From positions 1 to 35,197 of the forward strand of contig QCUI01000017.1 of NCBI GenBank assembly GCA_003210775.1: a stretch of DNA of 35,197 nucleotides. The letters are read 5' to 3'. Both the position numbers and the translations under genes were made by a program. The notes under the pieces were generated by a model, which saw only the letters and a program-made list of their open reading frames with translations, was not told the origin of the DNA and searched no databases. Origin of the DNA: Synechococcus sp. AG-679-A04. GTDB lineage: Bacteria; Cyanobacteriota; Cyanobacteriia; PCC-6307; Cyanobiaceae. Shown here piece after piece: positions 473 to 31,252 of this stretch. Within the stretch, counting starts at the first letter, position 1; each line of letters begins with the position of its first letter.

Positions 473-715
473 ATACCTGAAAGGGGATAGCTGAAGCGAG
501 AACAATCACCCTTTCGGATGATCTGATTCCAATTAATTCCGGAGATGGCGAAGAGGTCAAGGAGGGATGACATCCACAGGGAATTGAAACCGGTGAATTT
601 GCTCCCGCAGAACCCGTCCGAAAAGGTCCTGAAACCGAACCTCGAAGGACGGTTGCCCCACTTCCATGCGTAATCCAGCGGGAATAGAACGAGCAGGTCC
701 CACTCGGAGACACCC

Positions 716-970
716 ATGACTCAAGAACAACTCAATGCAATTCTCGTAAAACTTGAAGGTGACAGAAGCCTTCAGGAGAAACTAAAAGCAGCGGTATCGC
801 CTGAAGATGTTATGGGCATTGCCAAAGAATACGGCCATGAATTCACCGTTGACAAGATCAGTCAGCTCAGCGAAGGGGAGCTAGAAGACGTCGCTGGGGG
901 ACATAATACCTGCGGTGGGGGAGGCCACTGTCATAATACCTGCGGCGATCCGTCAAGGCCAACGTGGTAG
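716..970 (+). CDS. Nif11-leader ribosomal peptide precursor (prochlorosin-like), copy 1
   Basis: This is an 84-residue precursor with a Nif11-type leader (residues 1-62) ending in the double-glycine site VAGG, as in prochlorosin precursors of marine picocyanobacteria. The 22-residue core (63-84) is rich in Gly and His and has Cys66, Cys72 and Cys76 plus Thr65, Thr75, Ser80 and Thr83, which are the residue types a class II lanthipeptide synthetase would dehydrate and cyclise. A good ribosome site (GGAGA at 706-710) precedes the ATG, and an intrinsic terminator follows at 1041-1069, so it is likely a monocistronic unit. No modifying enzyme or transporter is present in the window, so modification would have to be in trans. 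The lanthipeptide assignment is inferred, since Nif11 leaders also serve other RiPP types. Confidence 0.8.
   Translation: MTQEQLNAILVKLEGDRSLQEKLKAAVSPEDVMGIAKEYGHEFTVDKISQLSEGELEDVAGGHNTCGGGGHCHNTCGDPSRPTW
902..945 (+). repeat. 14-bp direct repeat duplicating the core motif of precursor 1
   Basis: The 14 bases CATAATACCTGCGG occur exactly at 902-915 and 932-945, 30 bases apart and in frame. Both copies encode His-Asn-Thr-Cys-Gly, so the core peptide consists of two HNTCG blocks separated by a Gly/His/Cys linker. This looks like an internal in-frame duplication inside the core. Confidence 0.85.
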
Positions 971-1040
971 CGAATCCGATAAACCCAATCCAATGATGTA
1001 GCAAAAATTGCTGTGGGTTCCAACTACTATTACCTACTCC

Positions 1041-1069
1041 AAGCCTCTGTAATTGCAGGGGCTTTTTAT
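1041..1069 (+). terminator. Intrinsic terminator after precursor 1
   Basis: A 9-bp stem (AAGCCTCTG at 1041-1049 with CAGGGGCTT at 1056-1064, one G-T pair) closes a 6-nt loop and is followed by a T-rich tail. It separates the two precursor genes, which therefore probably have separate transcripts. Confidence 0.8.
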
Positions 1070-1193
1070 TTCTTCAGTAAACCAAACAAGCCCGCGATCA
1101 GCCATCAATACCTGGCACGATTGAGCGCAGTAAGTATTAGCCAAAGACACTTCAAGACATAATTGCTATAACCGTTAAAGACTCCTGATAACA

Positions 1194-1475
1194 ATGCCGG
1201 AAGAGCAACTCAATGGCTTCATGGAGAAGGCTTTGGCTGACGAAGGTCTCCAGTCAAGGCTTAAAGCTGCAACAAGTCCGCAGGCTGTCGCTGAAATAGC
1301 CAAGGAACATGGTTACACAGTCCCCTTGGAGGATTTACATGAAGGTGATTCCCTATCAGATCAGGAGCTTGAGGCGATTACCGGAGGTGGAGGTGGCCAG
1401 GGCGGGAAAAGCTGTTCTGTTGGATGCGTTTGCAAGCAGTCCTTCTGTATTGAAGTCGGTTACCCTAAAGAATGA
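1194..1475 (+). CDS. Nif11-leader ribosomal peptide precursor (prochlorosin-like), copy 2
   Basis: This is a 93-residue precursor with a Nif11-type leader (residues 1-65) whose end (LSDQELEAITGG) closely follows the prochlorosin leader pattern. The core (66-93) starts with a Gly-rich spacer and carries Cys74, Cys78, Cys80 and Cys85 with Ser73, Ser75 and Ser83, so up to three thioether rings are possible. The core shares nothing with copy 1 while the leaders are clearly related; conserved leader with hypervariable core is the hallmark of the prochlorosin family. The ribosome site is weak. A hairpin at 1493-1516 follows. No synthetase gene is in the window, so the product chemistry is inferred. 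Confidence 0.8.
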   Translation: MPEEQLNGFMEKALADEGLQSRLKAATSPQAVAEIAKEHGYTVPLEDLHEGDSLSDQELEAITGGGGGQGGKSCSVGCVCKQSFCIEVGYPKE

Positions 1476-1492: not shown

Positions 1493-1516
1493 AATTGCCC
1501 TTTTTTGAGGGCAATT
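1493..1516 (+). terminator. Hairpin after precursor 2
   Basis: A perfect 8-bp stem (AATTGCCC at 1493-1500 with GGGCAATT at 1509-1516) has a T-rich loop and is followed by a short T-poor tail. It is probably a terminator, although the missing T-run makes it weaker than the one at 1041. Confidence 0.5.
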
Positions 1517-3241: not shown

Positions 3242-3352
3242 CGGAAGGATGTGGGTCACCAGATCAGCATTGACCCAGCGGATCACGCCTGAATCCACAT
3301 CGGCGATCTGGAAGAGGTTATGGATGCTTGGTTCCCTTGCTGCTCCTCCGGA
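3224..3352 (-). pseudogene. DUF3104 C-terminal fragment
   Basis: Read on the minus strand, 42 codons encode a piece with the block IHNLFQIADVDSGVIRWVNA followed by DLVTHIL. This matches the C-terminal half of the small cyanobacterial DUF3104 proteins and the copy at 3756-3959. A stop (TTA on the plus strand at 3353-3355) directly precedes it and the N-terminal half is absent, so it is a remnant. Confidence 0.65.
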
Positions 3353-3462: not shown

Positions 3463-3842
3463 ATGAAACGCAAGCCCAACGTCAGCTATCGCTACCACCA
3501 CATGGGTGTTCCCACTTCGGAGCAACGCCATGGTGAGCACTACAGCTCAACCTTTCGGATGTACACATCTGGTGGTGAGGAACCCGGAGGATTCCGGATT
3601 CAATTTCATCGCTTCTAACCCGGCAGCTGCTTCTAGGGCCCTATGAACCTTTCAGTGGTTTCAAGGTGGCCATCATCGAAGAGGAAGGTGTTCCGATTGA
3701 GCTGATCGAGACGGAGCTCACTGAAGATGAAATATGGGGAGAGCCCAAGGCCAATTCAGTGATCTACCCGGAGGAGACGGTGCCGCTGACCGCCCAGGAT
3801 GTGGGTCACGAGATCAGCGTTGACCCACCTGATCACACCTGA
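3463..3842 (+). pseudogene. VOC-family (glyoxalase-like) gene with central deletion and frameshift
   Basis: The ATG at 3463 opens 51 codons beginning MKRKPNVSYRYHHMGVPT, typical of the first strand and metal-binding His of VOC domain proteins of about 135 residues, and stops at 3616. The C-terminal part continues in a different frame from 3624 (QLLLGPYEPFSGFKVAI, then IELIET and the EDEIWGEP tail) to the stop at 3840. The central 30-40 residues that should link the two are missing. The 3' end overlaps the minus-strand DUF3104 remnant. The enzyme is certainly not functional as a VOC fold. Confidence 0.7.
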
Positions 3843-3959
3843 ATCCACATCAGCGATCTGGAAGAGGTTGTGCATGGAGCGGTGGTGAGGAACCGCTGCA
3901 ACATGCACTGCCTGCCAGAGGTGGGCTTCTTCAAGATCCCCCAAAAGCCCCGTGACCAC
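3756..3959 (-). pseudogene. DUF3104-like small protein, N-terminus degraded
   Basis: The frame starts at a GTG at 3959 and runs 67 codons. Its C-terminal half (MHNLFQIADVDSGVIRWVNA then DLVTHIL) is the conserved DUF3104 core, nearly identical to the fragment at 3224-3352. The N-terminal part lacks the usual aromatic WW-x-G/A-x-V-I-H segment in intact form (it reads LWQAVHVAAV) and the FLDVQPG start seen at 30964. Function of the family is unknown. It could still be expressed as a shortened protein, but I call it degraded. Confidence 0.5.
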
Positions 3960-4543: not shown

Positions 4544-4762
4544 ATGACAAAATTTTTGAAAGTAATTGCCGTGCTTTGTGCACTATCAGTGTCCTTGATT
4601 ACAGGATCTTTGTATGTTCGAAGCATCAGAGATGACATGCGAGAACAGAAACAACTAAATCAGCGACTCAAAGTAATTTGCGATCAAGCACGACAATCAG
4701 ATTGGACAGAACGTCAGCGTTCTGCATTTCTCAACAGGCACTGTGCCGATCAATCGTCCTAG
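4544..4762 (+). CDS. Small single-pass membrane or secreted protein
   Basis: The ATG at 4544 follows a strong ribosome site (GGGGGAGG), so it is preferred over the ATG at 4520. The 72-residue product has one hydrophobic segment (residues about 5-22) and then a charged, Arg/Gln-rich tail with two Cys. I do not recognise a family. Confidence 0.55.
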   Translation: MTKFLKVIAVLCALSVSLITGSLYVRSIRDDMREQKQLNQRLKVICDQARQSDWTERQRSAFLNRHCADQSS

Positions 4763-5077
4763 AAACCTGCGACCTGGTGAAGCTGAACCACTAAAACATA
4801 CGATCAACATACTTGCCCATTCAACGAATCTCTTCCAGAACATCAATCGTCAGCAATTTTTAACAAAGACTGTCCCTTTTTCAATAAGCTCGCAAAAGCA
4901 AACCAACCATCTGCAAATCAATGGCTTGGGCCTTGCAATCGACGAACTTACCAATAATGTATTCGCATCATCTATTTCATTAGAGCCTTGATTTACATCA
5001 CGAATTATCGACAGAAATTAGCACCGTTGAAAAGCTGAGTGTTTAGGCATAGAATGTTGTTAATAGAAAGGCTAAGA
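4763..5077. other. Intergenic, no feature seen
   Basis: AT-rich spacer before the ROK kinase. An 82-codon frame from GTG 4743 crosses it, but it lacks a ribosome site, has no recognisable motif and overlaps the end of the previous gene. Confidence 0.5.
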
Positions 5078-5782
5078 ATGGAGTCATTACCCAACACTCT
5101 CTGCATCGACATTGGAGGAACTGGAGTCAAGCTTATTGTCCTTGACTCCAAGGGAACGGAGATCTGTGATCGACAGCGCCAAGAAACTCCTCATCCAGCG
5201 ACACCAGAATCGATTCTCGAGGTGATTGAAGGGTTGACCAGCAAAGTGCCCGAATTTGAGCGTGTTGCCGTTGGATTTCCTGGTGTTGTGCGCAGTGGAA
5301 TTATTGAAACTGCCGCTAACTTAGACGCCGATTGGCCAGGCATCAATCTTGCTGCTCAGCTGGAACAACGCTTGAACAAGCCAACTCGCGTGGCCAATGA
5401 TGCAGATGTTCAGGGGTATGGATGTGTTTCTGGTGAGGGCGTTGAAATGGTGTTGACCCTTGGTACAGGCATGGGTTCAGCACTGTTTGTTGATGGATGC
5501 CTGGTGCCAAACCTGGAACTCGCTCATCATCTGTTTAAAAAAAGCAAAACTTATGAAGACTATGTCGGCAGAGCAGCCCTTGAAACTATTGGGAAAGAAA
5601 AATGGATTAAGCGTGTTGAAAGGGTGATTTCAACAACCAAGCACATCTGGAACTGGGATCTTCTGCACTTAGGTGGTGGCAACAGCAAGCTCTTGAAAGA
5701 CTTGGAATTGCCTCATGATGTAATTTTACACTCAAATAAAGCTGGTGTCCTAGGTGGCTACTTTCTTTGGGAAAGCAACTAA
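5078..5782 (+). CDS. ppgK: ROK-family kinase, probable polyphosphate glucokinase
   Basis: The 234-residue product from ATG 5078 (AAAGG ribosome site; the frame is open from 5039) has the ROK layout: phosphate-binding DIGGTGVK at residues 8-15, GFPGVV, the catalytic-base motif NDADVQGYG and the adenosine/phosphate motif LTLGTGMGSALFVDG. The segment HHLFKKSKTYEDYVG matches the signature of polyphosphate glucokinases rather than ATP-only ROK glucokinases, which also tend to be longer and carry a Cys-rich zinc motif that is missing here. The expected reaction is glucose plus polyphosphate (or ATP) to glucose-6-phosphate in the cytoplasm. It stands alone, with AT-rich spacers either side. Confidence 0.8.
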   Translation: MESLPNTLCIDIGGTGVKLIVLDSKGTEICDRQRQETPHPATPESILEVIEGLTSKVPEFERVAVGFPGVVRSGIIETAANLDADWPGINLAAQLEQRLNKPTRVANDADVQGYGCVSGEGVEMVLTLGTGMGSALFVDGCLVPNLELAHHLFKKSKTYEDYVGRAALETIGKEKWIKRVERVISTTKHIWNWDLLHLGGGNSKLLKDLELPHDVILHSNKAGVLGGYFLWESN

Positions 5783-30963: not shown

Positions 30964-31209
30964 ATGTTCCTGGATGTGCAACCTGGAATGACGGTCACCG
31001 TGAGGTGTGACTGCTTGACTGCTGAGAGACAAGGCAAGGACTGGTGGATGGGTCAGGTCGTCCATTGCGGTGGTGCAGCAAGAGACACAAGTATCCACAA
31101 CCTGTTCAAGGTGGCTGATATGGGTTCAGAACCATTCACCAGAAGCTCACCAGAACCTCGCTGTCTCTGCACCAGAGCTGTGCAGGGGGTGTCACCAGAA
31201 GGGCTGTGA
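30964..31209 (+). CDS. DUF3104 small protein with replaced C-terminus
   Basis: The 81-residue product has the intact DUF3104 start (MFLDVQPGMTVTV) and core (DWWMGQVVHCGGAARD, SIHNLFKVADMG). From residue about 56 it runs into leader element B (31132 onward), so the usual end (VIRWVNADLVTHIL, as in the remnants at 3.2 and 3.8 kb) is replaced by an unrelated tail. It is likely a truncated gene whose 3' part was displaced by the element. The family function is unknown. Confidence 0.55.
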   Translation: MFLDVQPGMTVTVRCDCLTAERQGKDWWMGQVVHCGGAARDTSIHNLFKVADMGSEPFTRSSPEPRCLCTRAVQGVSPEGL

Positions 31210-31252
31210 TCTTAAAGGAGTCGAGGGGGAAACACCCCCAACCATTCACTCC
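31132..31252 (+). promoter_or_regulatory. Structured mRNA leader, element B copy 2
   Basis: This aligns without gaps to 1982-2102. Hairpin 1 pairs CTGCAC (31167-31172) with GTGCAG (31180-31185), a compensated version of copy 1. Hairpin 2 pairs GGGGG (31225-31229) with CCCCC (31235-31239) within GGAGT (31217-31221) and ACTCC (31248-31252); its loop is AAACA, so GGAAACA is present. Here no GGAG follows, so the ribosome-site switch proposed for copy 1 would not operate in the same way. It precedes the small gene at 31260. Confidence 0.6.

Follow-up and report, generated by a model that had tools for sequence, protein, structure and literature searches.

Results

Two precursor genes at the start of contig C17

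The stretch of DNA analysed here, called the window, is contig C17 (35,197 nt) of the draft genome of Synechococcus sp. AG-679-A04, an assembly of 2.28 Mb in 107 contigs that is 73.9% complete. Two small genes, P1 and P2, lie near its start with the following features:

587..715, + strand: P1 5' region, alignable with the 5' region of C34:698, by eye resembling that of C53:2777, without the TGCTATNAC motif
716..970, + strand: P1, 84 aa, prochlorosin-type precursor (open reading frame, Nif11 PF07862, leader_Nif11)
716-901, + strand: P1 leader, 62 aa, C-terminal VAGG
902-967, + strand: P1 core, HNTCGGGGHCHNTCGDPSRPTW, with 3 Cys and two HNTCG blocks
902..945, + strand: core stretch with two occurrences of CATAATACCTGCGG (902-915 and 932-945), containing 33 nt inserted in frame when compared with the C34 relatives
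1041..1064, + strand: terminator-like hairpin 3' of P1, clear T run
1106..1132, + strand: junction CAATACCTGGCACGATTGAGCGCAGTA, end of the P1 3' block and start of the P2 upstream region
1144..1172, + strand: predicted P2 promoter, AAGACA, 17 nt, TATAAC, with TGC preceding the second hexamer (TGCTATAAC, 1164-1172)
1194..1475, + strand: P2, 93 aa, prochlorosin-type precursor (open reading frame, Nif11, leader_Nif11)
1194-1388, + strand: P2 leader, 65 aa, C-terminal ITGG
1389-1472, + strand: P2 core, GGGQGGKSCSVGCVCKQSFCIEVGYPKE, with 4 Cys and 3 Ser
1493..1516, + strand: terminator-like hairpin 3' of P2, weaker

The first-pass annotation, made from the letters of the window, had read these genes as two prochlorosin-like precursors; both open reading frames are found there, with a Nif11 leader and a double-glycine site, and score above the cut-offs of the two leader profiles. 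P1 reaches 47.4 bits with Pfam PF07862 (cut-off 23.8 bits) and 59.8 bits with NCBIfam leader_Nif11 TIGR03798 (cut-off 32.3 bits), and P2 reaches 53.0 and 58.6 bits, so that their resemblance is more than chance. P1 gave a single weak match to solved structures, in the Nif11 domain (E 0.011), and P2 a weak match to Bacteriocin_IIc that stays under the cut-off. The leaders end in GELEDVAGG (P1) and QELEAITGG (P2); in each the ELExxxGG signature is present and preceded by a residue other than D or E, the form given for prochlorosins and synechococsins in the accessible part of PMC10783134 being D/EELExxxGG.

The leaders are 45% identical and the cores of P1 and P2 are dissimilar. The relatedness of the leaders, as first proposed, is borne out by their identity and their common Nif11 domain, with the refinement that they fall in different subgroups of a tree of 27 leaders, all from this genome. 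P1 belongs to a group of 18 rows (support 98/98), where it adjoins the genes of contig C34 (93/94), and P2 is a long branch outside this group which joins C53:2777 and one neighbour of a YcaO gene weakly (81/74), a join flagged as a possible long-branch artefact.

The 1.7-kb region contains five terminator-like hairpin sites against a mean of 2.3 in shuffled sequence, and hairpins like that of P1 also follow several paralogues in the genome. Further along the window, an 81-nt repeat is present in two copies, 90% identical (3246-3326 and 3796-3876), the second being covered by a minus-strand open reading frame (3756-3959) that matches DUF3104 (E 7e-12). Rfam, searched over the whole window at gathering thresholds, returned nothing beyond a tRNA.

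A single LanM and a dispersed Nif11 family

The window holds no LanM, in agreement with the earlier statement that a local synthetase is absent, and a profile search of the draft genome gave a single LanM match, to DUF4135, on contig C24 (19715-20884, E 1.7e-95). The corresponding open reading frame, of 1129 aa, combines DUF4135 and LANC_like domains; its dehydratase motifs align with those of LicM2 and CylM, and it carries LCCG where LicM2 has LCHG, the CCG type being that of the ProcM-like enzymes according to the accessible parts of PMC10783134 and PMC12328550. Upstream of it lie a C39-peptidase ABC exporter, which is the only C39 match of the genome, a second ABC open reading frame, and TolC-like and HlyD-like open reading frames named by reading. 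Downstream, on the opposite strand, is an 822-aa subtilase-family open reading frame (L060:11766-14234, minus strand, E 5e-24), a possible candidate for a processing protease near the LanM cluster.

The nearest named LanM, among 10 loci found with short exact peptides, is that of Prochlorococcus sp. MIT 0701, 50% identical to the C24 enzyme. The LanM of the alphaproteobacterium Roseovarius lutimaris (L122) is 49% identical to it, a likeness that suggests a transfer between phyla.

The genome contains 42 Nif11 matches over the Pfam cut-off, distributed on many contigs. When 43 of the 44 listed matches were read and split by eye (the one omitted, on C61, has an E of 0.24), 32 were classed as prochlorosin-type (3 of them partial, in the other 29 the match starts with an ATG) and 11 as other Nif11 proteins, ten of which have no double-glycine site followed by a core; the eleventh, C41:9300, has a GG site. 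The search of the rest of the genome that the annotation had called for has thus yielded a LanM, a C39 exporter in the LanM cluster and a large set of Nif11 genes. The genome does possess a RiPP-modifying enzyme, and the claim of a remote LanM acting on prochlorosin-like precursors is supported by the presence of one such enzyme, with its CCG motif, beside many dispersed Nif11 genes. A second LanM could be missing, since the assembly is incomplete.

Of 251 genomes of the family, 15 have LanM. Nine contain P1-like genes (E 1e-10), all nine LanM-positive (hypergeometric p 5e-13, kinship ignored), and 25 contain P2-like genes (E 1e-6), 13 of them LanM-positive and 12 LanM-negative (p 3e-13, kinship again ignored). 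At the same thresholds, six of the 15 LanM genomes are without a P1-like match and two without a P2-like match.

The 5' regions of P1 and P2

The -10-like motif TGCTATNAC, which P2 carries, begins exactly 30 nt before the ATG in 13 of the 29 prochlorosin-type genes, against none of the 9 other Nif11 genes whose match starts with an ATG and a mean of 0.014 genes in shuffled upstream pieces. These counts, like those given below for the 3' junction, overstate the evidence, for both motifs were picked after inspection, the shuffles were of single bases and related copies are not independent; the fixed position at -30 is itself partly due to the descent of the copies. By eye, a similar -10-like motif also precedes several of the relatives' genes. 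The common motif points to a promoter shared across the dispersed prochlorosin-type genes.

P1 is without TGCTATNAC and has a different, rarer 5' region. Its best upstream partner is C34:698, to which it aligns over 317 nt in one piece (78.5%), from 129 nt before the ATG into the leader; between -120 and -1, each 30-nt piece has 19 to 24 identical positions with C34:698 and 9 to 21 with C34:1176. P1 and P2 probably each have their own promoter, that of P2 being the one common in the family. A generic sigma-70 scan of positions 500-2200 gave no site on the + strand, which counts against a promoter before either gene. As for the independent regulation that had been deduced from the individual terminators, it does not follow from them; P1 and P2 may nevertheless differ in their control, because P1 lacks the motif of P2 and has another 5' region.

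Core change between P1 and the C34 copies

The cores of P1 and P2 had been described as unrelated, which is correct for the pair itself, but the core of P1 does have relatives, in two genes of contig C34. In the raw-sequence alignment, P1 and C34:1-330 share the end of the leader, the core tail (DPSRPT), the 3' region, the terminator and the junction. Both contigs, C17 and C34, have ends near these repeats. Relative to both C34 copies, P1 contains the 33-nt in-frame insertion, and the CATAATACCTGCGG copies in this region, 30 nt apart, give rise to its two HNTCG blocks. After DPSRPT, a net difference of 1 nt puts P1 out of frame and leads to an early stop: P1 ends at PTW, whereas the core of C34:2 runs on with CGADPRNPTM. 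In C34:1176, a TGA in place of the TGC of C34:2 creates a stop in the core. Core insertions and deletions are named as a source of diversity in the accessible part of PMC10783134, and P1 with its C34 copies is, as read from these alignments, an explicit case of it.

The conserved 3' block

The terminator of P1 stands within a 3' block that ends in CAATACCTGGCAC and recurs in three genera. The junction as a whole, CAATACCTGGCACGATTGAGCGCAGTA, was never matched when the window was shuffled 100 times. In the first 400 nt beyond the stop codon, and with at most 2 mismatches allowed, CAATACCTGGCAC[CG]AT follows 10 of the 32 prochlorosin-type genes of the genome (two of the genes counted have less than 300 nt of downstream sequence) and none of the 11 other Nif11 genes. 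In relatives it follows 10 genes of 27, from three genera, where shuffles gave 0.01; the 27 were drawn from 33 loci after removal of L101 and L154 (internal stop), L105 and L107 (match not starting with ATG), L164 (GG site lacking) and L165 (the same gene as L120). Within these 400 nt the motif is absent from the remaining 22 genes of the genome, P2 among them, and from 17 relatives' genes. The other Nif11 proteins, which have no prochlorosin-type core, resemble P1 and P2 in the Nif11 domain; neither the -10 motif nor the 3' junction was found with the genes counted.

In most of the junction-bearing genes, the terminator and spacer before CAATACCTGGCAC are similar. After it the sequences diverge, either into the promoter of the next precursor or into a continuation common to C15, C34 and C39. 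C28:14225 and C2:119944 have a common upstream flank, and a precursor gene comes next only at C28:14225.

A 121-nt element elsewhere in the window

A further repeated element, of 121 nt, is present in the window at 1982-2102 and 31132-31252 (+ strand; copies 89% identical). It carries a GGGGG/CCCCC hairpin together with repeats of the CACCA type spaced by 11, 22 and 23 nt, and ends 7-13 nt before an ATG. Ten copies are counted in the genome, from 13 matches of which one was a piece of another copy and two were short, and the element is matched in 7 of the 251 family genomes, this one included (no more than 3 candidates were scored in each; one match is of only 23 nt). Judged by eye, the open reading frame that follows codes, in 6 of 12 loci read in relatives, for a short peptide that has a double-glycine site and lacks Nif11; at others the product is a small protein that looks as if it had a signal peptide, or a member of a family ending in YEVLA / YAVLA.

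Four of the ten copies lie less than 3 kb from a prochlorosin-type gene, a zone that makes up about 4.2% of the genome (binomial p 5e-4, an optimistic value as one of the four prompted the test), and in genome G169 2 of the 3 copies found are within 2 kb of such genes. The element may be a promoter or 5'UTR of a secreted-peptide regulon. Of the 25 base pairs predicted for its RNA, one has changes on both sides, which gives no real covariation support. The element was not found in phage records, nor its 25-base core in viral_contigs.

Discussion

The reading we favour, and which the sequences make highly probable, is that P1 and P2 are members of a dispersed family of class II lanthipeptides, the prochlorosins, acted on by the remote LanM of contig C24. 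P1 and P2 would probably each be transcribed as a short unit of their own. Guided by its Nif11 leader, the peptide would reach the one ProcM-like LanM, which would dehydrate Ser and Thr residues of the core and couple them to Cys as thioether rings. The core would then be cut off after the double glycine and exported by the C39-peptidase ABC exporter encoded in the LanM cluster, possibly to act as a secreted signal or as a peptide used in competition.

This system is of a type already known, and P1 and P2 appear to be ordinary, though new, prochlorosin precursors. The prochlorosins of Prochlorococcus MIT9313 (ProcA/ProcM) and the synechococsins of Synechococcus MIT9509 (SyncA/SyncM) have the same Nif11 leader with its ELxxxxGG end, unrelated cores of Cys, Ser and Thr, dispersed precursor genes, one CCG-type LanM encoded elsewhere and a C39 exporter near the LanM; the architecture of ProcA/SyncA with solitary ProcM-like enzymes, as set out in the accessible part of PMC10783134, is the same as here. 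What differs is the pair itself, with its own cores, and the C24 LanM, which stands at only half identity to the nearest named one found.

The genome encodes a second RiPP cluster, however, and P2, or both peptides, could be substrates of its enzymes, which would install azol(in)es instead of, or besides, lanthionine rings. On contig C57 (locus L188 of this genome, G000), the genome's one YcaO match (4562-5578, E 9.9e-95; open reading frame of 756 aa) adjoins a ThcOx-like open reading frame and two Nif11 double-glycine precursors, so that Nif11/YcaO (LAP) clusters of marine Synechococcus, which share such leaders with P1 and P2, have a representative in the same genome. YcaO occurs in 12 of the 251 family genomes; its long form, as on C57, occurs in 6, all six LanM-positive, and mixed YcaO/LanM clusters are already in print (PMC10783134, accessible part). 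The presence of this cluster and the weak grouping of the P2 leader with one of its neighbours make the enzyme of P2 less certain. Yet that grouping may be the artefact mentioned above; the P2 leader shares 43% and 37% identity with those of the two YcaO neighbours and up to 50% with other prochlorosin leaders; no YcaO gene lies beside P1 and P2, which are on C17 and not on C57; and of the 12 genomes that have P2-like leaders and no LanM, 11 are without a YcaO match, the exception being G204. We consider this route improbable.

It is more doubtful still, and to our mind very improbable, that P1 or P2 or both are decaying copies or double-glycine peptides secreted without modification. The family does contain broken copies (among the 29, a stop codon interrupts the leader of C73:6344, C2:2959 lacks the GG and C34:1176 stops right after it), the frameshift shortens P1 relative to its C34 relatives, P2 has its sub-cut-off Bacteriocin_IIc match, and double-glycine peptides without Nif11 exist in relatives. 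Against this, both reading frames are open, with a Nif11 leader, a GG site and a core with Cys and Ser/Thr, a LanM is present in the genome, and P1-like leaders (E 1e-10) were seen in LanM-positive genomes only (9 of 9). A phage origin is rejected, as P1 found no match in 50,697 phage records and no relative of P1 or P2 was confirmed in viral_contigs, where one contig with an 18-base match to the junction, having no Nif11 leader, is taken as chance.

The 3' block lends itself to a more tentative proposal, in which the prochlorosin genes would be exchangeable cassettes, with a variable core between a conserved leader and a 3' block ending at CAATACCTGGCAC. We regard it as possible and rather less likely than not to hold. 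The alternative is that CAATACCTGGCAC is the conserved site of a regulator, kept by selection; the switch of neighbouring sequences at the sharp end of the block looks like an exchange boundary and can also be read with such a site. Literature searches by full-text strings and on prochlorosin promoters, core duplication and recombination found no earlier description of the junction or of the 121-nt element in the accessible sources, a PNAS article of 2017 on how prochlorosins evolved lying outside them.

In conclusion, a guess that had only the sequence to go on held up in a search of the remaining genome, and one more pair is added to the prochlorosins. The core change, the shared -10 motif and the 3' block would be modest additions to this picture. 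P1 and its C34 copies show core change in progress, by an in-frame insertion with a repeated block, a frameshift and a stop. The shared -10 motif offers a handle on the question of joint expression among the dispersed precursors, and the 3' block a handle on how new cores arise. If the proposal of exchangeable cassettes is true, recombination through the leader and the 3' block, together with local duplications and frameshifts such as those of P1, would be a source of new cores, both inside a species and from one species to another.
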